From a bacterium (GTDB lineage Bacteria; Arandabacterota; Arandabacteria; Arandabacterales; Arandabacteraceae), in assembly GCA_029933125.1 (NCBI GenBank), contig JAOZOU010000005.1:46352-110351 (forward strand): a stretch of 64,000 nt of DNA, in the 5' to 3' direction. A model generated the notes under the pieces. The model searched no databases. It saw nothing but the letters and a program-made list of their open reading frames with translations, and had not been told where the DNA came from. The position numbers and the translations under genes were made by a program. Below, piece by piece: positions 8,086 through 64,000 of this stretch (within the stretch, counting starts at the first letter, position 1; every line of letters starts with the position of its first letter).

Positions 8086-11000
8086 AATCCCTCAAGATAG
8101 CCATGGTATGTGTGCTTTTCATTGTCATTGTTTGTGCATTCTTCAGTGATGTGATATTTGGTAAGCGCATTCTCTTGACATGCAATCCCCATATCTGGAG
8201 TCCATGGAAGGCTTATACATCAGCGCAGAGCGCCGCAACGAAGACATATCGAACAGATTCGGCGCTTACCTACCTTCCTCGTCTTTACGAACTCAAGCGT
8301 GCAATCGGCGGTGGGAGACTTCCTCTATGGAATCCCCATGTCTTTATGGGATATCCCTTCTTCGCTGATCCTCAATCGCGGGTTTTTTATCCTATCTCAC
8401 TCCTGCTTAGCCTCGGTGATCCTGAGCGAGCTCTTGGTTTTGATGTCGCAATTCACTTGGGAATAGCTCTAATGGGGATGTATGCTTTCCTGACATCGCT
8501 TGGAGCATCCAAGCCTGGAGCAGTTCTTGGTGCTCTCACCTTTGGATTTTCATCATTTTTCTTCACACGAATGGGGCATCCAACATTTGTTGCCACAGCC
8601 AGCTGGATACCCTGGCAATTCTTCGGTTTTCACTTAGCGCCTAGACGCTGCATGGGCAAGGCCGTATTGCTTGGCGCGCTTGTACTGGGATACCTTGCAG
8701 GCTTTCCACAGGTGTTTTTCCTCGGAGTTGGCGCACTCCTCTTCTATGCCATCTGGATCTCAGTCGAGGAGATCGTGCAACGCGATAGATCAAGGTTGTT
8801 TGAGAATGTGAAGATCTTGCTAATCATTGGTGGAATTGCCTTCCTCATTGTGTCACCGCAGCTTCTGGCTTTCATTGAGTTCATACGTAACTCCAGAGGA
8901 CTCGGCATTGATTTTGAAACAATGAAGACTTCATACATGTCAAGCCCATGGGTGCTTTTGAGGGTGCTCGTCCCTGGATTTTTTGGCAATCCTGTTGAGG
9001 GCACAAGCTGGCTAAGATTACTGAATCCAACCTTCCATCCTTACAACGAAGGCTTCCTGGTTTATGCTGGTGTGGGAAGTGCTCTCGTAGCACTTGGTGG
9101 CTTGGCTTTCTTGAAGAGCTCAAGAGAGATCAGAGCCTTCTGGGGTCTGCTTGTGCTTGCCTGCGCTCTCGCCCTTAGTTCCTCGCTTCTCAAGCCATTT
9201 TACGTTGCCATTCCGTTTCTGAGGTTCTCCCAGATCGACCGTATATCGGTCATAGCGTGTTTGAGTCTTTCAACTGTGGCAGCTCTTTCATTTTCCCAAA
9301 TCTCAGAGGCTTCGAGGAGCCAGAGGAGAAGATTTGTAATCATTGTTCTCGTTGCTACTACCATGATCCTTGTTGGCTATTTGGGCTTTAGCATCAATCG
9401 CTATTCCATAATGGGAAGTATAAAGCAGGAGGCAAAGAGATTTGGGCATTCCTTCTGGCAGACCCAGGCGTCGCATAGGATTTGGAACTGGGCTAGAAGT
9501 GAACGCCCAGAGTGGGCAAGGTTCGAGGCTGAAAACTTAAAGTTTTCACTCGTGATGGCGCTTGTCTCTGGATCACTCCTTCTGGGATATGTGATGAGAC
9601 GTGATAAGCGATGGTTCCCGATCGTCCTTGGCTGGGTTTTTGTTGCACTGACATCTGGCGATCTCATGAAGGTTGCAAGGTCATACTATGTTAGCCAGCC
9701 TTCGGGGAGTCTCTGTGAAACCGAGGGAATAGCCCTGCTCAGGGAGCTCGTTAGCGATGGGGCTGGGTGGCGAGTTCTTCATTATGGCAGTGCTAGTGAG
9801 GTTTTGCCTGCAAATACCAATGCGATTTTCGAAATCCCATCAATCTCAGGACGCTCAACCCTTGTTCCTGAGGGTTTTGCAAACTATGCACTCGTTTCAA
9901 GCAGCCTCTCTTCAAGATCTGCATCGAGCCAGGAAGTACTTAGCCTGAAGGATATTGCTTGTGCAAGATATCTTCTGGCGGATACGCTTTATCCTGAGAT
10001 GCTTCGTTCTCCTATCCTGGCTGGGATGATGGCAACCCTTAAGCGGAAGCCCGAGGTTTTGGCTGTAGCAAAGGAGGCAAGGCTGGCCTTTCCGCTCACG
10101 GTAGGTAAGATTGACATGGAAGTCGTACTCCCCCAGGCCGAGGGCCTGGAATTTTACTTCGCGTTTGAATCTCAAAGCACATTGAGAGACTCCATTTATC
10201 TCAGTCTCAACGTCTCAAACAGGCTAACGGTCAGTTCGACCTATGCCTTTGATTCGGCTTGGGATGCTGGGATATGGCACAGACTATATCTTGACATATC
10301 CCGCTTGAGCGGAGGCAGATCAAAGGTTGAGATTGAGCTCAGAAGCAAGCATCCGGCTCAGCCGCAATGTTACCTTGCGGGGGGAGACATTGTGGAGAGG
10401 ATCTGTGAGGTGAGGTCTTCTCAAGGAGGCTATACGCTTGAAGGGATAGGGAAGGAGGGGAGAATACTTATCGACCTTTCGAGTCACAATCCGCTGCTTA
10501 AACTCTCTTTGGACTGGGGTGACTTCAAGACGGTTGGTTACATTACATTTCCTCCTGGATGGGAGCACCGCTCCATAACTATCCCCGTTGAAGGCGGCGC
10601 TGGCAGGCTCAGAATCGAGGGGGATGGTGAATTTGAAATAGCAAGAGCAAGGGTCATCGAGACTGCTGAGGCATATGTCCCTGGATTCGAAGTTCTCTAC
10701 AATGGTGATATGGTCATAGTTGAGAACACGCGAGCGATTGAGAAGGGCATTTTCATAGACAAGTCTCGGACTGTATTCCATAGGAAAGGTGACGAGATCT
10801 TGCTCAGCTTCGATCCCTCAAGCATGCTTAGGGATGAGGCGGGCTCGTGCCTTATTCTTCATTATGGTCCCGAGCACATCGAAGCAGAGGTCACAGCAAG
10901 GCGAGAGGGTTATCTTTTGTTACAGGATGTTCACTACCCGGGTTGGAAAGGCTATGTGGATGGTAGGCCAACTGAGGTTTTGCCAAGCTATCCTGGGATA

Positions 11001-51823: not shown

Positions 51824-53392
51824 TTGGCGAAGATAGTTGTTAGCCTAGCTGGCAAGATAGTTGAGACCGTCACACTCGGTGAGGGCAATCTCGTTGTTGG
51901 AAGATCACCATCATGTGACATCCATCTTGATGACAAGACTGTTTCGCGTCGCCATGCGAGCATAAGAGTCTCGAGGGATGGCATAACCGTCGAAGATCTC
52001 AATTCACGCAATGGCACTTTCATCTCTGGCAACAGAGTGAGTCATCATGTTGTTTCACCTGGCGATGTGATCACTGTTGGCCCTTTTTCCATAAGTTTTG
52101 AGGACCTTCCTGCTTCGAGAGAGGCGACAGCTCAAGATACCTCGGGTCAGACAGTTGTGAATACCCTTGATGCAATCACAGTGAGTAAGGCAGAGGATGT
52201 AAAGGAAGGCGTGGTAAGTACAGAGGCTGCCTCAAGGCGGCTGAGTGCTATCTATGATCTTAGCCAGCGTCTCAGTGGAAGGCTTGATACTAACGATGTC
52301 GCGGAGGCATTTCTCGATACGATCTTTGAGGTTTTCCCGAAGATCGACAGATGTTTGATTTTCGTTGAGGATAGGTTCGCTCATGAACTAAGCCCGATTG
52401 CCGTGAGGCCAACTTCGGCCTCGGGTGAGGTGAAGGTATCGCGTACTGTTATCAAGACAATAATGGAAGAAAAGCGGGCTGTCCTCTGCACGGATACCCT
52501 GAGCGATGAGCGTTTCAAACATGCTGTGAGTTTACAGGACTTGCGTATCAGGGCGATCATGTGTGCCCCTCTGCTAATCGGTGAGCGTGTGATTGGTATG
52601 GTCGAACTTGATTCGGAGAGGGGAATGGTTCTTGACGAAGATGATCTGAGATTGCTTGTCGGACTTGCCTCTCAAGTGAGCATTGCACTTGACAACGCAA
52701 TGCTCTTTATGGAGCTGGAGCAGTCGCGACGCCTTGCAGCAATCGGACAAACAATCGCCAGTGTTGCCCACTGTGTCAAGAATGTACTCAACGGCATCGA
52801 AGGAGGGCTTTTCATTGCCAAGCGGGGACTTGAAGCCAATCTCGAGGAGAAGATTGCAAAAGGATGGGACATGCTTGAGCGCAATGCCTCTTTCCTCAAG
52901 ACACTTGTGCTTGATATGCTTGACTATTCAAAGCAACGCCCGCCTCAATATGAGAATGTCAACTTTGAGAAGCTCATCATCGAGATAAGGGATTTTGTCA
53001 GTGGCAGAGCTGATAAGGGAGGAATCCTGCTCAAGGTTGAAGTGGATTCAACCATAGGTGAGGTCAGGGTCGATCCGACTCGTATGAAGCGTGCGCTTCT
53101 CAACATAGTTGCCAATGCTATTGAAGCTACAGACGAAGGGGGTGCGGTTTCAATACGAGCCTCCAAGTGCGGTGACAGCATCGAAATTTGTATCACAGAT
53201 ACAGGCAAGGGTATACCTGAGGATAAGCTTGAGACCATTTTTGAGCCTTTCTTTTCAACAAAAGGAAACAAAGGAACAGGTTTGGGACTTGCTGTTACCA
53301 GGAAAATAATTGAGGAACACAGGGGAAGCATAGAGGTTGCATCTCAGGTGGGCCAGGGAACGACTTTCACGATTCTGCTTCCAATTGGGTAG
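51824..53392 (+). CDS. FHA-GAF sensor histidine kinase
   Basis: A 522-residue cytoplasmic kinase. Residues ~1-95 form an FHA phosphothreonine-binding domain (LVVGRSPSCDIHLDD, VSRRHASI, LNSRNGTFISGN). Residues ~150-300 form a GAF domain. The dimerisation helix has RLAAIGQTIASVAHCVKNVLNGIEG with the likely phospho-accepting His. The HATPase domain has NIVANAIEATD (N box), ITDTGKGIPED (G1) and GTGLGLAVTRKI (G2). The combination suggests it reads a Ser/Thr-phosphorylated partner. I choose the TTG at 51824 because GGAGGATC lies five bases before it; an earlier start would overlap the P460 gene. The CheY-like protein nearby is a likely partner. Confidence 0.88.
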   Translation: MAKIVVSLAGKIVETVTLGEGNLVVGRSPSCDIHLDDKTVSRRHASIRVSRDGITVEDLNSRNGTFISGNRVSHHVVSPGDVITVGPFSISFEDLPASREATAQDTSGQTVVNTLDAITVSKAEDVKEGVVSTEAASRRLSAIYDLSQRLSGRLDTNDVAEAFLDTIFEVFPKIDRCLIFVEDRFAHELSPIAVRPTSASGEVKVSRTVIKTIMEEKRAVLCTDTLSDERFKHAVSLQDLRIRAIMCAPLLIGERVIGMVELDSERGMVLDEDDLRLLVGLASQVSIALDNAMLFMELEQSRRLAAIGQTIASVAHCVKNVLNGIEGGLFIAKRGLEANLEEKIAKGWDMLERNASFLKTLVLDMLDYSKQRPPQYENVNFEKLIIEIRDFVSGRADKGGILLKVEVDSTIGEVRVDPTRMKRALLNIVANAIEATDEGGAVSIRASKCGDSIEICITDTGKGIPEDKLETIFEPFFSTKGNKGTGLGLAVTRKIIEEHRGSIEVASQVGQGTTFTILLPIG

Positions 53393-53396
53393 GTTG

Positions 53397-55082
53397 TCAC
53401 TCAGCCTTATTGACTTCAACAGGAGGCATTATCCTGTAGATGGCTGATTGCCAGCTTTGTGATCTGTAGGCAACAGGATACCCCTTTTGTTGGAGAATCT
53501 GGGATGCTTTGGGCTTGCGTGCTACAATATAGATATGGTTGCCGAGATTGCTAAGATACTGCCAATCCTCAGTGCTGAGGCATCCTGATTCATAGAGGGA
53601 ACTTGCAATCCTGATTCTTCTTTCAATCTCCTCGCGGCTGTAGCCACTCTGGCTGATTAGTATCATCTTGATATTGCCATAGCCCTTGCGCTGCTTCCGC
53701 TCCGTTGCGGAATAAGGGATGAGGATTTGTCGTTGCCCGAGCACGGGGATTTCAAGCTCCGTATCGATGAATATGGCATCGAGGGGCGTTTGGTTGCGGA
53801 TCCAATCGTAGAGATCTTGCTCCCCCGATCTGGTCTTAAGCACCATACCTTCTTCGAAAAAGGTGTTGGGCACTCTCTGGCCGACCGAGCTTCTGAGCCA
53901 CAGTATTCGAAAAGTTGGTAAGAGGAATAGCATGAGAATGAAAAATGCTGCCAACCTCCCGAATCTCTTCTGGAAGCAACATAGAATCGGACCTCCCAGG
54001 ATACCCAGAGTGGTGCTCGAAAGAAGCAGGAACTTATATTCGTTGTTGAAGGTAAGATGGATCGAAAGATATGCAGCAAGTGTGGAGATCACGGGAACGC
54101 TGATCACTAGAAGAGCTATTCTTCTCACCGTGGAAAGCAAGCACCTGAGGACGATCAGAAACAAAACCAGGATCGGTAGATTCACAATGAAATAGTTGAT
54201 GATGTTCTGCTTTAGATAGGTCTTATCAAGAATCATTGCATGCGCGGCAGATCCAGCAATGGATTTTAGATATGGGATCAGGATAGCTACTACGCCGAAA
54301 AAAGCAAGCCACATGACTGCCGTTCGCACGAAGTAGGCCATGTTGCTTCTTGAGACGAGCCAGGAGACTGGGAAGCCGAGAAGAATTGAAGCTGCGATAC
54401 CAGGTAGGAAAGCAGGGTAGAGAAATCCGGTTAGGGCTATGCCTGCAGCGACAACTAGGAAGGGCTTCCTGGGATTCGCATGGCTGTAATAGAGCAACGC
54501 CCCATAGATGGTAAGAAACCATCCAATGAGTCCAAGGGGAAGGGCATTGATAGTTATGAATTTATCAATAAGTGGTATACCTCGAATCTCCGGTTGTACT
54601 CTTGCATGGACCAGCCTTACCATCTCAACTATAAAAGGTGTAAATGCATAGATTGCAAATATCGCAGAGAGAAGATTAGTTCTCTCGTCATTCACAAGCA
54701 CTTGGGATATCTTCACAACGAGCAGGATCACCAGAATCGAGGAGATCATATTAAGTGCAGGTATTGCCAAGAATGGTGTAACATCGAAGATCTTGCAGAT
54801 TGCTGCAGCCAGAAGATGGGGTACCCACGGATAGTGGAGACTCTTTCCAGCCACAAGGGGATCTGGTGGGGGGATCCTGCCATTGACGATCTGATAGACT
54901 ATACTGCCATGCATGAAACTGTGGAATGAGAATATTCGAAAGCCTGGGTTAACCAGATAGGTCAATATTACCGGTGCCAAACCCCAGAGGATTACCCAGA
55001 GCTTGCGAATAGGGCGCAGGATGATGTTGGCAATGAGAATGGCTGTTGCTATGCTGTACAAGAGAACGACGAGTAAAATCAT
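53397..55082 (-). CDS. Polytopic membrane protein, GT-C-like
   Basis: A 561-residue protein with about 12 hydrophobic segments and a soluble C-terminal part of ~120 residues. The first loop after two helices contains NGRIPPPDPLVAGKSLHYPWVPHLLAA, similar in style to acceptor loops of GT-C transferases and to a DUF2298-like membrane group. A tail with DWIRNQTPLDAIFIDTELEIPVLGQR resembles those of the PMT-like proteins in the first part of the window. I cannot name the family with confidence; membrane glycosyltransferase is the best guess. It converges on the histidine kinase gene with a 4-base gap. Confidence 0.65.
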   Translation of the reverse strand: MILLVVLLYSIATAILIANIILRPIRKLWVILWGLAPVILTYLVNPGFRIFSFHSFMHGSIVYQIVNGRIPPPDPLVAGKSLHYPWVPHLLAAAICKIFDVTPFLAIPALNMISSILVILLVVKISQVLVNDERTNLLSAIFAIYAFTPFIVEMVRLVHARVQPEIRGIPLIDKFITINALPLGLIGWFLTIYGALLYYSHANPRKPFLVVAAGIALTGFLYPAFLPGIAASILLGFPVSWLVSRSNMAYFVRTAVMWLAFFGVVAILIPYLKSIAGSAAHAMILDKTYLKQNIINYFIVNLPILVLFLIVLRCLLSTVRRIALLVISVPVISTLAAYLSIHLTFNNEYKFLLLSSTTLGILGGPILCCFQKRFGRLAAFFILMLFLLPTFRILWLRSSVGQRVPNTFFEEGMVLKTRSGEQDLYDWIRNQTPLDAIFIDTELEIPVLGQRQILIPYSATERKQRKGYGNIKMILISQSGYSREEIERRIRIASSLYESGCLSTEDWQYLSNLGNHIYIVARKPKASQILQQKGYPVAYRSQSWQSAIYRIMPPVEVNKAE

Positions 55083-55321
55083 ATGAGGGATAGTCCTGTT
55101 GAGCGCAATCCCGTTGTGCCATCTGCCAGCATGGATTCTATACCTGCAGCATCAAGCTGGGCAAGAGAAAAGCTTTGCGCCTTTTTCCTTTCGTGAAGTG
55201 TTTTGCTTTCGGGCTCTGAGACGTGCTTTTTCGAAACTCACCCTCAAGAGATTGCCCAGGAGGAGTTAGGCACGATCGGTGGGTTAAATCGCCGCAGTGG
55301 CAACGCCTTGGAGAAGTACTT

Positions 55322-55352
55322 GGTGCCGCCCACCATGATTGCAGGCGGCACC
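55322..55352. repeat. Inverted repeat in the gap between the membrane protein and pseudogene
   Basis: GGTGCCGCC (55322-55330) and its exact complement (55344-55352) around a 13-base loop. It lies 26 bases beyond the stop of the minus-strand pseudogene and may be its former terminator, although no T-run follows. The rest of the gap 55083-55377 holds nothing I can support. Confidence 0.4.
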
Positions 55353-55377
55353 CTATCATATCCCTGTCTCATGTCTT

Positions 55378-55970
55378 CTATCTGTAGAGTGCCTTAATGG
55401 TGCCCCAGGTACTCGGATCTGTTGAAGTCGGTCCATCTACATATATCTCGATGTCGAGATAGTCAAAAGTGCTTTCGCTGGAAGCAGCGACGCCGAGGAC
55501 GTTCCAGCCTGAATGCCAGCCGGTTCCGGGCCAAACCCACATCGAGCCCTGCCACCACGGACAGGTTGGGGCACTTCCACTAGAGCCAAACCAGTTACCA
55601 TTCATGTAGAGACGGCAGTTCTGAGTCTCTCTTACATCGACATAGAGATCAGTAACCCCATCTGGTAGCTGGAACCAGACGCGCAAAGCTATCGTACCGT
55701 CAGTGCGGCTGCTCCACGCTGTTTCGACCGGCCCAACGTCGCATTCGGCGGAGGCGGTACCAAACGCGACTTTACCGATCAACCAGTCTCAGTCATCGAA
55801 GTCGGGTGCGAAGACTTCAGACGGCACTTCATTTACTCCAACCTGGAAGAATTCATAGGTAGCTGTTGCTGTCCCGAACGGAACAATCACAACGCTACCT
55901 GAGGCCAAACCCATGCTTGCTGCCGCAGTTAGAATGACTACACACCCAGGGAAAGAAAAACCGCTCTCAA
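55378..55970 (-). pseudogene. Exported protein gene broken by a frameshift and an in-frame TGA
   Basis: Reading the minus strand from a TTG at 55970 behind a perfect AAAGGAGG site gives RAVFLSLGV, the start of a signal peptide. The rest of it (VILTAAASMGLASGSVV) continues only in another frame. A two-base GT expansion in GGTGTGTAG (around 55940) would explain the shift. The second frame runs VPFGTATATYEFFQVG to APDFDD, meets a TGA (near 55787), and continues as DWLIGKVAFGTA. The protein then goes on for 130 residues with a beta-rich body and a final STWGTIKALYR. Restored length would be ~195 residues. I do not recognise a family. Two independent lesions make decay more likely than programmed recoding. 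Confidence 0.7.
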
Positions 55971-56117
55971 CTCAACCTCCTTTCTGTGAGCGCCGACCCG
56001 AGCTACGTCATAACGTTGGACATGTATTATATCATAACAAAGAAAGCGTGGCCACTTCTCCAGGGGTGAGAGCAGTGTACCATAGAGTTCGCAGATTTGG
56101 GTTTGAAGGGGAGGGAA

Positions 56118-56165
56118 ATGGGGGTGTCCTCCCCAGAAAAAACCTAAACGAGGAGACACCCCCAT
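56118..56165. repeat. Inverted repeat at the left edge of the transposase remnant
   Basis: ATGGGGGTGTC (56118-56128) and its exact complement GACACCCCCAT (56155-56165) flank a 26-base loop. The right arm contains the ATG of the broken transposase frame. It may be a relic of an insertion-sequence end or a hairpin that blocks translation. A matching right end was not found. The 55981-56117 stretch holds nothing else I can support. Confidence 0.45.
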
Positions 56166-56760
56166 GAAAGAACTCTACCTGGGTGATAGAGACATTGATG
56201 AGGTTTAGCAAGGGTTTAATCGACCGTGGTGGCAACAGGCAGACGGTGATGTGCGTATGTTGCTGAAGGGGATGCTTGAGCGATACGGTTATGAGGACTT
56301 GGTTTGGCAGACCTGCCTGTGCGTCGCGCGCAGAGAGGAGCTGATGCGAGTGCTTGGGATGATCTATGCGCGGGTAACGCGTCAGTTGTGCTGGGTGCGT
56401 AGGATGTGGAACGTTCTGGGGGAAGGTGCGTAAGGTGGACCATGAAGGCGTTAGATGGGGACTCATGGCGATGTATGAAGCCCGGAGCGGCAAGAGTGCT
56501 TTGGAAGCCGATCTTAGGTGGGCGAAGAGGCGGAGCGGGAAATATCCCCGAGCTGTAAGGAGTGTGGAGAGGTATCTTGAGGAGTCGCTGGATCTGTTTC
56601 TCTGCCCTGCCCATCACAAGGTGCTATATAAGGGGTGCGAACCCTATTGAGCGGTCGTTCAGGGAGATGAGGAAAGGAACAATACCCATAACTACATTCA
56701 TCAATCGTGACAGTTGTGACCGGACCATCTTCGGAGTGATATCTAAGTCGAATATGCAAT
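56164..56760 (+). pseudogene. Degenerate IS256-family transposase remnant
   Basis: Pieces of a mutator-type (IS256) transposase are spread over three frames. One begins MKELYLGDRDIDEV, stops at a TAG (56206), and continues with WWQQADGDVRMLLKGMLE and TRQLCWVRRMWNVLG. A second (from 56426) has VDHEGVRWGLMAMYEA and SGKYPRAVRSVERYLEESLD. A third has GANPIERSFREMRKGTIP and DRTIFGVIS. The NPIERSFRE and KYPRAVR.ERDLE-like motifs are typical of the C-terminal half of this family. Part of the catalytic core appears deleted between the N-terminal and central pieces. The element is dead, and it marks a mobile-element scar just upstream of the CRISPR-Cas operon. Confidence 0.7.
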
Positions 56761-57051
56761 GGAGGAGATCACCCTCAAAGAATTCGCAAACGAACCTTGA
56801 TGCTACCGTAGAGGTCTACAGGTTGAACTGTGATGCGCGGTGTGATAGACTTTTCATGGCGAACTGAAGCACAGTTATCGACCGAGGGCAACGAGCCTTG
56901 CATCAAGCCAACTGAGGGTGCGAGATTGCGAATCACCATCACAATCACGCTGCGATAGTTTCTCGACAAGAACCGTTGGCGGCTTCTGGACTACCTCAAG
57001 CGTTGGTAGCTCCATCAACAGCGGGTACTTGGCTCAACAGGGAATAAGAAA
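56761..57051. other. Gap between the transposase scar and the cas operon
   Basis: About 290 bases with stop codons in all frames at short intervals. Some of it may be further insertion-sequence debris. I see no convincing promoter hexamers for the cas operon, although one must lie here or be weak. Confidence 0.4.
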
Positions 57052-57156
57052 ATGAAGCCAATTCACACATCTCTTGAGAAGTTCAAATTTCGCGAAGATC
57101 AAGAGCCCGGCGATGAATTCAACAAAATTCGGATAAGCAAATCCGAAAGGAGGTGA
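57052..57156 (+). CDS. Possible 34-residue upstream peptide coupled to cas8e
   Basis: A short frame, MKPIHTSLEKFKFRED to KIRISKSERR, whose last two Arg codons (AGG AGG) form the core of the cas8e ribosome-binding site and whose TGA ends four bases before the cas8e GTG. This geometry would couple translation. It has only a weak site of its own (GGAATAAG). It is too short to separate from chance. Confidence 0.3.
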   Translation: MKPIHTSLEKFKFREDQEPGDEFNKIRISKSERR

Positions 57157-57160
57157 TCCT

Positions 57161-58645
57161 GTGGCACAGGATTCTCAACCAAAACCTGCAACAGTCGAAT
57201 TCAACCTGCTGAGAGAAGACTGGATTCCTGTCCTTCTCAACGACGGTACCTTCTTGCGGGTGAATCCAGTAAGGTGCCTTGAGGAGGCAAGGACGATAAG
57301 ATCGATAGCTGCACCAAGTCCTATGGACCGGCTCTCAATCCTCCGATTCCTTCTTGCACTCCTCTGCTGGTGCCGTGTTTACGAGAGAATGGACAAAGTA
57401 CACAGTGAAGAATGGATTGATTTAAGGGACTGCATTCCAAGGCTCAAGGATGAGATCGCATACTTCAATCTCTTCGGGGGTCCTCCCAGATTCTACCAAT
57501 TCAGGCTACCCGAAAAGGAGAAACAAGAGGAGTTCCTCTCAACGGCTTACCTCATTCACGAACTCCCCGCGGGCAGCAATGTCCCATTCTTCATAAAAGC
57601 AAGGGAATGCATCGATGGCCTCTGTCCCCGATGCTGTGCGCTGGGACTTCTCAGGCTGCCACTTTTCACAACTATGGGAGGGCGAGGGAAGAAACCAGGA
57701 ATAAATGGGAAACCTCCCGTCTATTTTGTCCCGCTTGGAAAAACACTGGGCGAAACACTCATGCTGTCCCTGAGGAAGATCAGCTCTCTCAACCTTGCGC
57801 TTGGAGAGCCTTCATGGAAGAGCCCAGAGCCAACGGTTGAAGGCAATTCGGTTCCGCTACTGAAGGGTTTGACGTGGCTACCGCGGGCTGTTTGGCTCCA
57901 GGAGCCCTTGTCACATGAATACAGCCAAAATGAAGTGTGCATCTATTGCGGAAGAAGTGGTCCGGTAGTGCGAAGTATGATTTATGCAGGAAGAAAGTGG
58001 GCGAAGAACCTCAAGTGGCGAGACCCTCATGTACTCTATCAAAACGATCGACCACTTGTATTGCGTGACGAAAGCAAACTAAAACAGCTAAGATATAAGC
58101 GAAGAAGCGGGGCTCTGGCCATCCTGCTTGCTATGCTAGAAGACTCTGAGCTAAGAGAGACACTTCGAGCAATATCGGCAGGCAGAGAGACAAATCTGTG
58201 GGCAATTGCATTGGTTAGCCAACAGAACAAATACATCGAAGCGGTAGAGCATATATTCCCCGTGTCCTCGATTCTCGAGGATCCCGATAGTCTTGCCAAA
58301 AAGATAGATGAGCAACTCAGTCCGCTCACCAAAATAGAAAAGAATCTCACCAAAATCCGCAGGAAGCCTCAAGATCAGAAGGGTAAGAGAAAAGCCCCTT
58401 TAGTAGCCCAGGCAATTCTTAACCACTTCTATCCGCATTTCGAGCGAAGCCACATGGAAGGATTACTCAGAAAAACAGCTGCACAGCCATTGATAGGCGA
58501 ATCATTGAGCGAGCTGCAAACGGCGATTTCCCGCACCTCATTGCTATCAATGCTTCCAAATAAAATATCTGCATTGCGTAAGGCGAACTGGCTTGAGTCC
58601 CGCATCCTACCCGATAGGCCAAGAAAAGACCCAAGGAGGAGGTAG
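57161..58645 (+). CDS. cas8e: Type I-E Cascade large subunit Cas8e (Cse1/CasA)
   Basis: A 494-residue large subunit that in type I-E Cascade recognises the PAM and starts DNA unwinding. It opens with FNLLREDWIPVLLNDGTFLRVN, the standard Cse1 start, then IRSIAAPSPMDRLSILRFLLALLCW and FFIKARECIDGLCPRCCALGLL. A CIYCGRSG lies mid-protein; the cysteine pairs could bind zinc. The C-terminal helical bundle that contacts Cse2 follows. The GTG start has an almost perfect anti-Shine-Dalgarno complement, AAAGGAGGTGATC, so expression could be strong. It is the first gene of the operon. In Cas3-type systems this subunit also recruits Cas3; here that partner is missing. Confidence 0.95.
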   Translation: MAQDSQPKPATVEFNLLREDWIPVLLNDGTFLRVNPVRCLEEARTIRSIAAPSPMDRLSILRFLLALLCWCRVYERMDKVHSEEWIDLRDCIPRLKDEIAYFNLFGGPPRFYQFRLPEKEKQEEFLSTAYLIHELPAGSNVPFFIKARECIDGLCPRCCALGLLRLPLFTTMGGRGKKPGINGKPPVYFVPLGKTLGETLMLSLRKISSLNLALGEPSWKSPEPTVEGNSVPLLKGLTWLPRAVWLQEPLSHEYSQNEVCIYCGRSGPVVRSMIYAGRKWAKNLKWRDPHVLYQNDRPLVLRDESKLKQLRYKRRSGALAILLAMLEDSELRETLRAISAGRETNLWAIALVSQQNKYIEAVEHIFPVSSILEDPDSLAKKIDEQLSPLTKIEKNLTKIRRKPQDQKGKRKAPLVAQAILNHFYPHFERSHMEGLLRKTAAQPLIGESLSELQTAISRTSLLSMLPNKISALRKANWLESRILPDRPRKDPRRR

Positions 58646-58648
58646 AAG

Positions 58649-59134
58649 ATGTCGTCAACTCAGGAATTTGTTCAGCTCTTGCTAGGCCTCAAAGAAGGAG
58701 AGATTTCATTGCTGAGGCGACTGGCATTCGCGCCTCTCGATAAGTCCGTCACCGGATTCGATCTGTTTACAGGTCTATGGTGGCCAATTAGGGCAAAAAC
58801 TCCAAGGGCACCCCGAAGAGAGGCTGCATGGTTGGTGCTTAAGCTATACGGATTCCGTCCCATAAAACATACGCCAGGAAAAACTTTCAGCATGCTTCTC
58901 GCTAGATGGCGTGCTGAGGACCCGGAGAAGAGAGAACCAAGAGCAGATTTCATTATGAACAGAATAACAACTTCCCCACTTGACGGTCTAGAGCTTCCAA
59001 TGAGGATGGCATTTGCGAGGTTTTCAGAATCAGATTCCATTGATTGGGTAGCCCTGACCGATGATCTTTCCTTCTGGGAGAAGCAGGAGATAAGAACTAA
59101 GTGGATAAATGATTTCTTCAAAGACAGGAGGTAG
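58649..59134 (+). CDS. cas11: Type I-E Cascade small subunit Cas11 (Cse2/CasB)
   Basis: A 161-residue helical protein matching Cse2: GEISLLRRLAFAPLDKSVTGFDLFTGLW near the start, ARWRAEDPEKREPRADF in the middle and FARFSESDSIDWVALTDDLSFW near the end. Two copies normally line the belly of Cascade and hold the displaced DNA strand. It starts three bases after the cas8e stop behind AGGAGG, and ends five bases before cas7. Confidence 0.92.
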   Translation: MSSTQEFVQLLLGLKEGEISLLRRLAFAPLDKSVTGFDLFTGLWWPIRAKTPRAPRREAAWLVLKLYGFRPIKHTPGKTFSMLLARWRAEDPEKREPRADFIMNRITTSPLDGLELPMRMAFARFSESDSIDWVALTDDLSFWEKQEIRTKWINDFFKDRR

Positions 59135-59139
59135 TTGCA

Positions 59140-60330
59140 ATGTCACTAATACAGATTCACATGATCCAGAACCATGCACCATCGAACCTGAATCGTGATG
59201 ACCTTGGTAGCCCTAAGACCTGTTACTTCGGAAATGTCTTGAGACTGCGTATCTCCAGTCAGTGTCTCAAGCGAAGCATAAGAATGAGTAACGAGTTTAG
59301 AAGGCTTAGAGGCGGAATAAGAACACGGAGACTGGCTGAGCTAATCGCTGAGGGCATGAGCGAAGATGTTAGGAAGCGCGTTGAGAAGATACTCGACATA
59401 GGAGGGATAAGCCCGAGGCGAGCAAGATCAAGAAGCGAAGAAACAGAGTCTGAAGCACAAGGAAGCAAAATGCTTGTCTTTACAACAAGGTCCGCAATCA
59501 AGGAGATGCGGAACCTCCTAGCTCAGACAGCTAAGAAGCAACCCGGTGAAAAGGAGGCAGCAAGGGAGTTCGCGAGAATCATAACCCAACGCACTGCAGC
59601 CCCGGATATGGCTCTCTTCGGAAGAATGCTTGAACCCACACAAAACGAGCAAAAGATATGGGACGATCTGAATACGACAGTGGAAGCGGCTGCACAGGTA
59701 GCACATGCGATTTCAACGCATGAAGCGCACCCAGAGATCGACTACTATGTGGCAGTTGATGACATACCTGGTAAGGACCCTGGGGCAGGCTATGTTGACG
59801 AAGCGATGTTTGGCTCAGCTTGCTACTACAAGTACTTCTCAATAAGTTGGGATGCTCTCCTTGAAAATTTGACAGGCTTCCCTGGAAATAGGGAGCATCT
59901 TGCTGCCCATACCATAGGAGCATTCATCAAAGCCGCAGCACTTACATGTCCCACAGGCAAGCAAAACAGTTTCGCAGCTCACAATCCGCCAGAAGCCATA
60001 ATGGTTGAATTGAGAGACTACCCACTGAGCTATTCGAATGCCTTCGTCAACCCCGTAAGAGCAACTGACACCGATCTGGTTACAAGAAGCATCATGCAGT
60101 TTGTCAAGTATGTCAAAGACATTGATGCAGGATATGGGAAACCAACAAGCCGCTTCTGGTTCTCACCCAATCTGCGTCATCGGTTTGTCAGTGATTTGAG
60201 CGAAAAAGAAGACAGCGAAGTCAAATCTCTTGGTTCGCTGGATGATTTGATAAGCCATGTCATAGAGGGAATCAACCCGGCGCTAAGCTGGGATGAGGCG
60301 AGAAAGACATTCGTGACGGAGGATGCGTGA
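59140..60330 (+). CDS. cas7: Type I-E Cascade backbone Cas7e (Cse4/CasC)
   Basis: A 396-residue RAMP protein. The N-terminus IQIHMIQNHAPSNLNRDDLGSPKTC followed by LRISSQCLKRSIR is diagnostic for Cse4. Six copies normally form the helical backbone along the crRNA spacer. Other conserved pieces are YYVAVDDIPGKDPGAGYVDEAMFGSACYYKYF and FIKAAALTCPTGKQNSFAAHN. Length is slightly above the usual ~350-370 because of a charged insert near residues 90-110. The AGGAGG site lies six bases before the ATG; the stop overlaps the beginning of the Cas5 reading frame. Confidence 0.96.
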   Translation: MSLIQIHMIQNHAPSNLNRDDLGSPKTCYFGNVLRLRISSQCLKRSIRMSNEFRRLRGGIRTRRLAELIAEGMSEDVRKRVEKILDIGGISPRRARSRSEETESEAQGSKMLVFTTRSAIKEMRNLLAQTAKKQPGEKEAAREFARIITQRTAAPDMALFGRMLEPTQNEQKIWDDLNTTVEAAAQVAHAISTHEAHPEIDYYVAVDDIPGKDPGAGYVDEAMFGSACYYKYFSISWDALLENLTGFPGNREHLAAHTIGAFIKAAALTCPTGKQNSFAAHNPPEAIMVELRDYPLSYSNAFVNPVRATDTDLVTRSIMQFVKYVKDIDAGYGKPTSRFWFSPNLRHRFVSDLSEKEDSEVKSLGSLDDLISHVIEGINPALSWDEARKTFVTEDA

Positions 60331-60332
60331 AG

Positions 60333-61436
60333 ATGAAACCGAACACACTCTTTCTGCGACTTGAGGGACCTCTGCAGTCGTGGGGTGATCATCAATCTGA
60401 ATTCGTAATAAGAAGAACAGCAGAGGCTCCAACCAAATCTGGAGTTGCTGGGATAATCTGCGCTGCAAAAGGATTGACTCGGGAGCAATCACCACGACTG
60501 CTCGAAAAGATATCAAGGCTTGCCATGGCGGTTCGAATTGACAGACCTGGAGTGCGCTGGTGGGATTTCCACATAGTAGGAGGAGGGAAGCAGATGAGAA
60601 AAGCCAGCGGCGGGATAAGGAAGGACGCAATCATAAGTCTCCGTGAATACCTCTGCAACGCTTCCTTCCTCGTCGTGCTTCAGGGTGACAACGATCTCAT
60701 AGAGGACTTTGAAATTGCGCTCAGGAAGCCAAGATGGCAGCTCTATCTGGGTAGAAAAAGTTGCGTCCCCTCCTCTCCGATCCTCGACGGGCAGGCAGAT
60801 TTATTCGAAACGCTCGAGGACGCACTTCGTTCAAAACCCCTTCGTTGGACAGAGGAGTTCGGTAACGGGAACAAGCCTCAAAGGCTTGGGTGCATAATTG
60901 AGTGGAGAGCAACACCCCAAGAGCCTCAAATGCCTCAGGATGCCGAGATTTGGTATGACACGCCCGTATCATTCAAGCCCCCGGCCCACGCACCGAGGGT
61001 CGTCATCCGAAAGTCAATCAATGTGGGTAAAGGAGGAGTGCCAGTTGAAATTCTCAAGGCAACAAGAATTCCGGAGAGGCAACGGACAAGCCATGCAGAT
61101 TATGCTAACTCAAAATACAAGAAAGTGCGTGAGAAGAGGCTTGACCTTGACCGCCGCCTGTGCGTCTTCTGCAAATCGCCGGCTACCACCGTCCAACATG
61201 TCACATACCGCCGTGCTGGAGGCGAAGAAGAACTCCAGGACCTTAGGTCGTTATGTCGTCTTTGCCACGACGCGGTAACGATGGTCGAGTATGGACTGTC
61301 CCTGGGAATTGACCGCATAAATCCCGAAGACGAGCAGTGGAGAGAAATGATACTTGCAAAGAGAGACGAAATAATAAGATTCCGCTCCATCCAGATGAGG
61401 AGAAGGTTGCTTGGAAGAGAAGAGGAGGGATTCTAA
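60333..61436 (+). CDS. cas5: Cas5e fused to a C-terminal HNH nuclease domain (Cas5-HNH)
   Basis: A 367-residue fusion; ordinary Cas5e has ~220-250. Residues 1-235 are Cas5e (NTLFLRLEGPLQSWGDHQ, PTKSGVAGIICAAKGL, YDTPVSFKPPAHAPRVV), which caps the crRNA 5' handle. After a ~35-residue linker a zinc-type HNH (beta-beta-alpha-metal) domain follows: CVFC (Cys277, Cys280), VQHVTYRRAGG (His289, probable general base), LQDLRSLCRLCH (Asp303 at the N position, Cys308, Cys311, His312). The rest is helical (INPEDEQWREMILAKRDEI, FRSIQMRRRLL). I start it at the ATG at 60333; a GTG at 60327 in the cas7 stop is possible. Known: HNH fusions to Cas5 (I-E) and Cas8 (I-F) were reported in a 2023 large-scale survey of rare CRISPR systems (Altae-Tran et al.). 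Inference: it is the interference nuclease of this operon, in place of Cas3. Confidence 0.95.
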   Translation: MKPNTLFLRLEGPLQSWGDHQSEFVIRRTAEAPTKSGVAGIICAAKGLTREQSPRLLEKISRLAMAVRIDRPGVRWWDFHIVGGGKQMRKASGGIRKDAIISLREYLCNASFLVVLQGDNDLIEDFEIALRKPRWQLYLGRKSCVPSSPILDGQADLFETLEDALRSKPLRWTEEFGNGNKPQRLGCIIEWRATPQEPQMPQDAEIWYDTPVSFKPPAHAPRVVIRKSINVGKGGVPVEILKATRIPERQRTSHADYANSKYKKVREKRLDLDRRLCVFCKSPATTVQHVTYRRAGGEEELQDLRSLCRLCHDAVTMVEYGLSLGIDRINPEDEQWREMILAKRDEIIRFRSIQMRRRLLGREEEGF

Positions 61437-61437
61437 G

Positions 61438-62283
61438 ATGTATCTTTCATATCTTTACATAGATCTCGGCAGAAACCCCGACAGATTGAGACCCGGGCGA
61501 ACCTGGCTCCGCAACTTATACCGGGTCCATCAGCGTCTCTGTATGGCTTTCCCGAGGCCATCAGGCAAAGAAAGAGACCCGTTTTTCCTGAAGCCATTTG
61601 ATCCTGAAAACATCAGCGATCGCCATGTTCATGTGCAGAGATCTGAGAGCAGTGGCTTCCTGTACAGAATAGACCCGCTGCCTCCATCCTCGGCACAACC
61701 CCAAAGAGCAGTAATCATTGTCCAATCTTCCATAATTCCTGACTGGGAATATGCCTTCAAGAATTGCATCGATCTTCTTCTTGCTCCACCTCTGGTCAAA
61801 CCGTACAATCCAACATTCTCAGCCGGTCAGAGATTCAAATTCAAACTTCTCGCCAATCCAACCAAGAAGATTGGCACGATCCTGAAAAGCAAGAGGATGG
61901 CATTACCAGCTGAGACTTTGAAGAATAGCCCAGGCAGACATGGCAAAAGAGTCCCCGTACCTTCTCATCAGCTGGCCGATTGGCTCATCCAAAGAGCAAA
62001 TGAAAACGGATTCAAACTCTATGAAGATTCTTTGGAGATAATCCCTGGTTATGCCAATTTCTCGAAGGGCTTACCAGAGCATTCAAGAACCTATCGCCTT
62101 CGCTCAGTTCGTTATCAAGGCATCTTAGAAGTGACCGATCCCCAACGATTCCGCAAGGCAGTGACTGCCGGCATCGGGCCAGGAAAGGGTTTCGGTTTCG
62201 GTCTTCTGTCTCTGACACCAGCTTCCAAGAATGAGAAAGAGGTGAGGGTTAATGAAACCGTCAGATTTGCACATCTTGCCTAA
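61438..62283 (+). CDS. cas6e: crRNA-processing endoribonuclease Cas6e (CasE)
   Basis: A 281-residue RAMP endoribonuclease that cuts the CRISPR transcript at the base of the repeat hairpin and stays on the 3' end of the crRNA. The start YLSYLYIDLGRNPDRL, then LRNLYRVHQRLCMAFP with the family's catalytic-region His (VHQRL), and the C-terminal Gly-rich GIGPGKGFGFGLLSL fit Cas6e. It is longer than the E. coli protein (~200) through inserts in the middle, as in many other Cas6e. The ATG has GAGGAGGG upstream and lies one base after the Cas5 stop, showing operon organisation. The stem-loop repeats downstream are suitable substrates. Confidence 0.93.
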   Translation: MYLSYLYIDLGRNPDRLRPGRTWLRNLYRVHQRLCMAFPRPSGKERDPFFLKPFDPENISDRHVHVQRSESSGFLYRIDPLPPSSAQPQRAVIIVQSSIIPDWEYAFKNCIDLLLAPPLVKPYNPTFSAGQRFKFKLLANPTKKIGTILKSKRMALPAETLKNSPGRHGKRVPVPSHQLADWLIQRANENGFKLYEDSLEIIPGYANFSKGLPEHSRTYRLRSVRYQGILEVTDPQRFRKAVTAGIGPGKGFGFGLLSLTPASKNEKEVRVNETVRFAHLA

Positions 62284-63226
62284 AATTGAGGCTAGATGGA
62301 GTTACCTCTATGTTGAGCATTGTAGAATCGACAAGGAAGAGCAAGCGATTGCCTTACACGATGCAGATGGGAAAACCCCTGTCCCATGCGCCAATCTTGC
62401 CTTGCTTATGCTCGGACCAGGGGTGTCAATAACTCACGCTGCTGTCACTGTTCTTGCCGAGCATGGTTGTCTCGTTGCCTGGAGCGGCGAAGGAGGCATC
62501 CGCTTTTACGCATGTGGGCTTGGAAACACTCGAAGCTCCTCAAACCTTCTTCACCAGGTCAGAATGTGGGCTGATGAGTGCCTGCACATGCAGGTAGTTC
62601 GAAACCTATATCAATTTCGCTTCAGTGAGAAACTCGACCCATCATTGACCTTGAGACAGATAAGAGGAATGGAAGGGATACGAGTAAGGAGTGCTTACAA
62701 GGAGTGGAGTAAGAAAACTGGCGTGCCATGGTCAAGAAGATTCTACAGGCGGGATGCCTGGAATGCATCGGATCCAATAAACAGAGCAATCTCAGCGGCA
62801 AACGCATGCCTCTACGGCTTATGTCACAGTGCTATAGTAGCATCGGGCTTCTCACCAGCCCTTGGCTTCATCCACACAGGAAATATGCTCTCTTTCGTTT
62901 ATGATGTTGCTGATCTTTACAAGACTGAGACAACCATCCCAGCGGCTTTCGAAACAGTCGCTGAGGGATGTGAGGACCTGGAAAGACGGGTGAGAATAAG
63001 ATGCCGTGATCTTTTCGTATCAACCAAGTTGCTTCGGCGGTTAGTTGGAGACATCAAGTCTGTTCTGATGCTTGATGAGCAAGATGCCAGTGGTGATACC
63101 GATTCAGGGGTCGAAACGAAAGACAAATTGGTGTATTGGGAACCAACCTCCCAGCAAGATCGAGAACGGAAAAACGATCATGGCACTTCTTGCCGGAGGA
63201 AACGCTATGACCGTCTTGATACTTGA
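62252..63226 (+). CDS. cas1: Adaptation integrase Cas1 (type I-E)
   Basis: A 324-residue Cas1 that, with Cas2, inserts new spacers at the leader end. It aligns with E. coli Cas1 almost without gaps, and the metal-binding residues occur at the same positions: Glu141 (RGMEGIRVR), His208 (LGFIHTGNM), Asp218 and Asp221 (VYDVADL). ITHAAVTVLAEHGCLVAWSGEGG and AISAANACLYGLCHSAI are also typical. It should be active. The ATG lies inside the cas6e 3' end (32-base overlap), with GAGGTGAGG upstream. Confidence 0.96.
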   Translation: MKPSDLHILPKIEARWSYLYVEHCRIDKEEQAIALHDADGKTPVPCANLALLMLGPGVSITHAAVTVLAEHGCLVAWSGEGGIRFYACGLGNTRSSSNLLHQVRMWADECLHMQVVRNLYQFRFSEKLDPSLTLRQIRGMEGIRVRSAYKEWSKKTGVPWSRRFYRRDAWNASDPINRAISAANACLYGLCHSAIVASGFSPALGFIHTGNMLSFVYDVADLYKTETTIPAAFETVAEGCEDLERRVRIRCRDLFVSTKLLRRLVGDIKSVLMLDEQDASGDTDSGVETKDKLVYWEPTSQQDRERKNDHGTSCRRKRYDRLDT

Positions 63227-63488
63227 ATCTGTCCCACCGTCGCTGAGAGGTCAGCTCAGCAGATGGTTCATCGAAATCAAACCAGGGGTTTTCGTTGGCT
63301 CTGTTTCAGCTCTGGTGCGTGATCTACTGTGGAAGATGTGCTGCAGGAAAGCATCCACTGGTTCCTGCTTGATGGTTTACGCTCGCAGGAGCGAACAGGG
63401 GTTCAGTATAATGACTCACGGAGAACCGAGCAGGAAAGTTGTGGATATCGAAGGGCTGATACTCGTGCGCAAAGCTAAGGAAAGCTAA
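63207..63488 (+). CDS. cas2: Adaptation protein Cas2 (type I-E, Cas2e)
   Basis: A 93-residue Cas2e: TVLILESVPPSLRGQLSRWF, IEIKPGVFVGSVSALVRDLLW and GLILVRKAKES match the type I-E form (CasCT1978 family), which bridges two Cas1 dimers. I start it at the ATG at 63207, six bases after GGAGGA; the open frame extends upstream into cas1 but the family start is here. It overlaps the cas1 end by 20 bases and stops only 29 bases before the first repeat. Confidence 0.94.
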   Translation: MTVLILESVPPSLRGQLSRWFIEIKPGVFVGSVSALVRDLLWKMCCRKASTGSCLMVYARRSEQGFSIMTHGEPSRKVVDIEGLILVRKAKES

Positions 63489-63517
63489 GGGAATCTAAGA
63501 ATCGCAAGATTTGTAGT
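63489..63517 (+). promoter_or_regulatory. Very short leader between cas2 and the array
   Basis: Only 29 bases, purine-rich at the start, separate the cas2 stop from repeat 1. No promoter hexamers and no clear IHF site are visible here, so the array may be transcribed from the cas operon or from a promoter inside cas2. The last bases (GTAGT) recur just before repeat 2. Confidence 0.5.
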
Positions 63518-64000
63518 ATCGTCCCCACGCGTGTGGGGGTGACCCGTTTAGCATCGCTAGGGACTTCAACTGGTAGTATCGTCCCCACGCGTGTGGGGGT
63601 GACCCGTATATCGTACACCGCGCACTGTTCCCGTCTAAATCGTCCCCACGCGTGTGGGGGTGACCCACTATGGGTACTGCTATATCAGAGGCCGAGTAAA
63701 TCGTCCCCACGCGTGTGGGGGTGACCCGGGACATTGCCCTCAGAGCGTTGGAACGGCTCGAATCGTCCCCACGCGTGTGGGGGTGACCCTCACATTGAGC
63801 GAGGGCGGCGAGCGCTAAAGATATCGTCCCCACGCGTGTGGGGGTGACCCGCAACCACCCTATACCCCAACCTATACTAGTCACATCGTCCCCACGCGTG
63901 TGGGGGTGACCCGTACCATATAGGCGGGATTGATTGGGGTTATACATCGTCCCCACGCGTGTGGGGGTGACCCGTCTAGTGACGTGTTAGAAGCGTGTGG
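63518..64000 (+). CRISPR. Type I-E CRISPR array, eight repeats visible, continues beyond the window
   Basis: Eight identical 28-base repeats start at 63518, 63578, 63639, 63700, 63762, 63823, 63885 and 63946. Each begins ATCGTCCCCAC and ends GTGGGGGTGACCC. Spacers are 32, 33, 33, 34, 33, 34 and 33 bases, plus a partial eighth. CCCCAC and GTGGGG with a GCGT loop form the hairpin that Cas6e would cut, leaving a GGTGACCC-like 5' handle. The repeat direction agrees with transcription from the cas side. All repeats are identical, so this is probably the leader-proximal, young end. Confidence 0.99.

Follow-up and report, generated by a model that had tools for sequence, protein, structure and literature searches.

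The stretch of DNA analysed here (the window) comprises 64,000 nucleotides of contig JAOZOU010000005.1 from a bacterium of the family Arandabacteraceae. Close to its end it carries a CRISPR-Cas operon in the order cas8e-cas11-cas7-cas5HNH-cas6e-cas1-cas2, followed by a CRISPR array, in which the Cas5e protein is fused to an HNH nuclease domain. A Cas5-HNH system was published in 2023 (PMC10910872), and the updated classification of 2025 names the variant I-E2 and describes it as typically lacking Cas3 (PMC12669027). The locus is another, apparently intact member of this variant, which has already been published, solved by cryo-electron microscopy and classified, and it is not a new kind of system.

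The cas5-HNH gene

The cas5-HNH gene is located at 60333..61436 on the forward strand and encodes 367 amino acids in one uninterrupted frame; a GTG six bases upstream, at 60327, is an alternative start which would add two residues. The Cas5e part covers approximately residues 1-232 (60333..61028) and the HNH domain approximately residues 256-322 (61098..61298), and a helix ends the protein at the C-terminus. A preliminary description had proposed a fusion rather than two genes, and the translation of the whole region without a stop agrees with this. The zinc cysteines (Cys277, Cys280, Cys308 and Cys311) as well as His289, Asp303 and His312 were all found where that description had placed them. 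In the same open reading frame (ORF) Pfam recognised Cas_Cas5d (2.3e-40) and HNH (PF01844, residues 279-317, 25.1 bits with a cut-off of 21.4), and NCBIfam recognised casD_Cas5e (150.5 bits). The predicted structure of the HNH region contains strands at 286-289 and 304-307 and a helix at 309-322.

The structure model used was based on an 89-row alignment and had a mean predicted local distance difference test score (pLDDT) of 87.6, whereas a model built on 27 sequences was of low quality (mean pLDDT 67). The poor model was the query in Foldseek and the better one in VIA-align. Solved Cas5-HNH Cascade chains matched along the whole length of the 367-residue protein (E 4e-115), with 52-54 % identity over the whole length in the VIA-align structure alignment. 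The protein had 1342 homologues with E ≤ 0.001, and the best 120 of these were all 363-377 amino acids long, with 54-96 % identity and 95-100 % coverage. The nearest among the homologues listed is a 96 % identical protein of 367 amino acids on a different contig. As these best 120 homologues share the full length and a 96 % identical protein exists on another contig, a sequencing error that splits the frame at the junction, a concern raised in the preliminary description, is very unlikely.

Conservation was assessed from 83 aligned Cas5-HNH proteins (the 89 rows minus six plain Cas5e). C277, C280, H289, C308 and H312 were invariant, C311 was present in 82 and Q288 in 81 of the proteins. The residue set proposed earlier thus held for the zinc cysteines and both histidines, but Asp303 was not strict: this position is D in 60 proteins, E in 22 and A in one. 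In the usual HNH pattern, position 303 corresponds to the N. The HNH part was conserved as well as the Cas5 part, the mean majority fractions being 0.81 and 0.78, respectively. Judged by sequence, the zinc and catalytic histidine residues are intact in the window protein, as in other I-E2 members.

The closest known system is the Cas5-HNH Cascade of 'Candidatus Cloacimonetes' (PDB 8yb6, 8yha, 8zlu, 8zp7 and 9jxs), which has the same five type I-E genes, a C-terminal HNH on Cas5 and likewise no cas3 found; its Cas5-HNH has 388 residues compared to 367 in the window protein. The locus corresponds to the HNH-bearing Cas5 kind mentioned in the preliminary description by its sequence, predicted structure and operon composition and in having no cas3 found. 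Canonical type I-E shares the Cascade subunits, Cas1e, Cas2e and the repeat type with the window, but has Cas3, and the window Cas5 is longer by approximately 120-145 residues. The I-F4 Cas8-HNH Cascade of Selenomonas sp., described by Hirano et al. (PMC11459484), also has an HNH inside Cascade instead of Cas3; there, however, the HNH is in Cas8f of type I-F, whereas the window Cas8 is of the Cse1 type, with no HNH found by Pfam. IscB and Cas9 are also RNA-guided nucleases with an HNH, but the window complex is multi-subunit, the NCBIfam IscB model matched only residues 259-317 of Cas5-HNH (25.4 bits, far under the 175-bit cut-off), and no RuvC family was among the Pfam and NCBIfam matches.

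The operon, the array and the search for cas3

All type I-E effector genes are present at the locus, as in I-E2, and all genes described here are on the forward strand. The large subunit gene cas8e (cse1; 57161..58645) has a GTG start and encodes 494 amino acids matching Pfam CRISPR_Cse1 (1.8e-36) and PADLOC Cas8e (7e-37), although it stayed below the cut-off of the NCBIfam Cse1 equivalog model (62.5 vs 70.05 bits). It is followed by the small subunit gene cas11 (cse2; 58649..59134, 161 amino acids; CRISPR_Cse2, 1.6e-09) and the backbone subunit gene cas7e (59140..60330, 396 amino acids; Cas_CT1975, 1.2e-91). Downstream of cas5-HNH is cas6e, for the crRNA-processing nuclease (CRISPR RNA, crRNA), at 61438..62283 (CRISPR_assoc, 1.7e-39); its start was placed by inspection, the ORF being listed from 61411. 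The best PDB match of all five Cascade subunits was the HNH-Cascade entry 8yb6, with chain J for cas8e (1.6e-44), K for cas11 (2.2e-32, its sole match), D for cas7e (5.4e-114) and B for cas6e (3.6e-50). Two spacer acquisition genes complete the operon. One is cas1e (62252..63226, 324 amino acids; NCBIfam cas1_ECOLI, 4.9e-112), the sole Cas1 gene found in the genome, and the other is cas2e (63207..63488; Cas_Cas2CT1978, 1.3e-33), the start of which was chosen by inspection within an ORF that at its longest starts at 63072.

The CRISPR array (63518..64000, forward strand) has eight perfect 28-nt repeats within the window. On the contig the whole array (9869-10783 of locus L058) has 14 perfect repeats and 12 counted spacers of 32-34 nt, mostly 33, in keeping with the spacers of about 32 nt of I-E2. 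A scaffold gap of 100 N, which joins two pieces inside the array (L058 10352-10451), starts exactly at the window end, and since the spacers flanking it begin alike, one repeat may be counted twice. The window repeat ends in TGACCC, and the other HNH arrays found end in TGAACC (32 of 34) or TGTACC (2 of 34). Position 29 of the window repeats is variable (G, A or T, i.e. the first spacer base), and it is G in most related arrays. Between the stop of cas2 and the first repeat there are only 29 bases (63489-63517), little room for a leader, which may overlap cas2 or be located at the other end of the array.

No piece of cas3 was found at E ≤ 1 in positions 52000-57360 of the window, and Cas3_HD had no match in the window's own genome (96.74 % complete, 176 contigs), while as a control it matched in 7 of 14 named genomes. 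Four below-cut-off matches to cas3_core in the genome were read as other helicases. The cas3 helicase-nuclease characteristic of canonical type I-E was thus not recognised in the locus or elsewhere in the assembled genome, in keeping with the lack of Cas3 typical of I-E2.

Relatives, Cas3 remnants and origin of the fusion

When genome contigs were scanned with a profile from an alignment, A1, 47 loci were obtained (none with a single-protein query), of which 39 had an HNH in the Cas5 frame and eight were plain Cas5e; as A1 favours Cas5-HNH, the ratio 39:8 is not a frequency. The HNH was called by profile search, which located one within the Cas5 frame in 49 of the 88 rows including all 39 loci, five of which were missed by motif search alone. 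Among the 39 loci are members of 12 named phyla, including the archaeal Thermoplasmatota; six bacterial ones lack a named phylum and one record is without a rank. Measured between stops, the ORFs of the 39 were 363-513 amino acids long, with some truncated where a contig ends, compared to 221-246 in seven of the eight plain Cas5e; the eighth (L050) has 358 amino acids without an HNH, including an unassigned N-terminal stretch.

The order of the effector genes was the same in all HNH loci wherever the contig shows the genes. In one further HNH locus cas8e and cas11 matches were found in a single ORF of 645 amino acids (L144, 6085-8019), a long matching query suggests the same fusion in L145-L149, and L143 has no separate cas11; a Cas8-Cas11 fusion has been published for some Cas5-HNH members (PMC10910872). 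The cas1 gene was found in 34 of the 39 loci. Of the other five, L021, L034 and L036 are truncated by contig ends. In L028 and L043 the DNA and an array are present, but the search found no cas1 and, for cas2, just a weak piece; perhaps their acquisition genes have decayed.

Frequency was estimated from Cas5e matches over the curated cut-off, with the HNH sought approximately 1.5 kb on either side; as some contigs are shorter, misses are possible. In a sample of 386 genomes centred on that of the window, an HNH was found in 5 of 24 matches, or 4 of 23 when the window's own match is set aside. A second sample took 392 genomes from the phylum to which G059, with the Phycisphaerae locus L028, belongs; here the figures were 7 of 19 and, setting G059 aside, 6 of 18. 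These samples are small, and the genomes G088, G239 and G051 appear also among the 39. In the viral collection IMG/VR, two short patterns revealed one contig with a Cas5-HNH locus (L057), filed as viral.

Full-length cas3 was found in none of the 39 HNH loci, 27 of which span at least 2 kb upstream of cas8e, and seven further HNH loci (L143-L149; L150 repeats L013) had no cas3 match. Two Cas5-HNH loci retain remnants of the N-terminal HD part of Cas3 directly upstream of cas8e (L027 6587-6805 and L039 6496-6699), L031 has a short piece of the Cas3 helicase region, and at a contig start in the genome of L026 an HD remnant is found beside a cas8e (L156 1094-1282). Cas3 remnants at Cas5-HNH loci were also described by Altae-Tran et al. 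(PMC10910872). Cas3_HD exceeded the cut-off somewhere in 15 of the 39 HNH genomes, comprising three with full-length Cas3, two with remnants (G057 and G070, the genomes of L026 and L039) and ten with partial, mostly weak matches. Two of the three full-length Cas3 are in a separate plain-Cas5e operon (L153 and L155), the third being L154. Among the eight plain Cas5e loci cas3 was found in six and not seen in L050 and L052; this is partly circular, because the Cas3 queries derive from the same genomes, and shows presence rather than sensitivity.

The Cas7 tree comprised 84 rows, 45 of them with the HNH (43 distinct; L094/L025 and L106/L013 were identical and taken as the same contigs twice). One branch, with a Shimodaira-Hasegawa-like approximate likelihood ratio test (SH-aLRT) value of 99, separated all HNH rows from the others. 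This was a quick, unrooted tree without bootstrap; it excluded L023 and L041 (no cas7), L012 (short piece) and L036 and L048 (odd lengths). A tree of the Cas5 part (88 rows, without L048) also had one change of the HNH label, but the support was weak (55) and the single branch therefore rests on the Cas7 tree. Distant phyla interleave in the latter, e.g. Planctomycetota with Chloroflexota, Nitrospinota or Myxococcota, and their interleaving is consistent with a single fusion event that later spread between lineages by transfer. To look for a free-standing HNH donor, the HNH part alone was used in a search that sees only proteins with shared exact words and similar length, and 60 proteins with 55-74 % identity to the query were obtained. 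Each of them aligned to a full-length Cas5-HNH at 60-91 % and they were hence read as pieces of Cas5-HNH genes; an HNH outgroup was not found by this search.

Proposed function and spacer uptake

The window operon is very probably a type I-E2 operon in which the crRNA would guide Cascade to matching DNA and the HNH on the Cas5 subunit would cut both strands there, replacing the missing Cas3. For the window complex these steps are inferred by homology with the published relative. According to PMC10910872, the relative's Cascade uses crRNAs with 32-nt spacers and cuts double-stranded DNA depending on a protospacer-adjacent motif (PAM), with cut sites beyond the PAM-distal end, by 3-4 bp on the target strand and by 8 bp on the non-target strand, so that 3' overhangs result. 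It also cuts single-stranded DNA collaterally, and inactivation of the HNH residues abolished its activity in forming insertions and deletions (indels) in human cells. A commentary (PMC11822464) describes the HNH as held between Cas6 and Cas11, with R-loop formation moving it and widening a channel. The suggestion in the preliminary description that Cascade would be its own DNA nuclease is thus favoured by the sequence, the predicted structure, the operon, the absence of cas3 and, by homology, the cutting reported for the relative.

Several observations weigh against this proposal. As position 303 varies within the family, the central catalytic residue is less certain, and as most VIA-align rows test residues 1-241 only, the HNH part rests on five whole-length rows. 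It is possible that a cas3 gene is on DNA missing from the assembly, and with Cas3_HD matches in 15 of the 39 HNH genomes, Cas3 of other systems may be available in some hosts. Six spacer cores (five spacers and the partner of an overlapping pair, from the 12 counted) had no match among the IMG/VR viral contigs, and no PAM could be derived.

We consider it improbable in the extreme that the HNH is a mobile-element nuclease which landed in cas5 as a passenger, or that the gene is broken or mis-assembled. Mobile elements are the typical carriers of HNH nucleases (PMC12669027), but the same fusion occurs in 39 loci of 12 named phyla and on one Cas7 branch, its HNH is conserved like the Cas5 part, and structures of it have already been solved. 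A real fusion at a locus that mainly binds or silences DNA, or uses Cas3 in trans with only minor nicking by the HNH, seems very unlikely. The three full-length and ten partial Cas3 matches in HNH genomes make co-occurrence possible; however, the window's own genome has no Cas3_HD match, two of the three full-length Cas3 belong to the separate plain-Cas5e operons, and the published relative cuts by itself (PMC10910872). The strong conservation of the zinc and histidine residues of the HNH also speaks against this reading.

The window adds a Cas5-HNH system with apparently intact parts, and the loci found reveal the breadth of the variant, with 39 from 12 named phyla (one archaeal) all lying to one side of one Cas7 branch. 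Two questions thereby become testable, namely how a precise cutter came to take the place of the processive Cas3 in such a range of hosts, and how spacers are taken up in systems without Cas3. Genome editing is a possible use of new Cas5-HNH proteins; the published one gave short indels.

The known primed acquisition in type I-E depends on Cas3. It is doubtful, though conceivable, that HNH-Cascade also feeds immunity, with a staggered cut handing target-derived ends to Cas1-Cas2 for primed acquisition without Cas3; by the published cut positions, a 3' overhang of 4-5 nt would supply such ends. Hints in this direction are the frequent cas1 (34 of 39 loci), the presence of an array in 35 of the 49 HNH rows, and two spacer pairs in opposite orientation. 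Three of 7910 within-array pairs shared at least 14 nt, compared to none of 139,786 between-array pairs (raw counts without composition correction, from HNH arrays only, five plain arrays being left out). One of the three is in the same orientation and two are in opposite orientation, namely spacers 6 and 10 of the window array, sharing 18 nt, and a pair in L146 sharing 23 nt. The shared pairs fit repeated sampling of one target, and are the sole hint here on Cas3-free spacer uptake.
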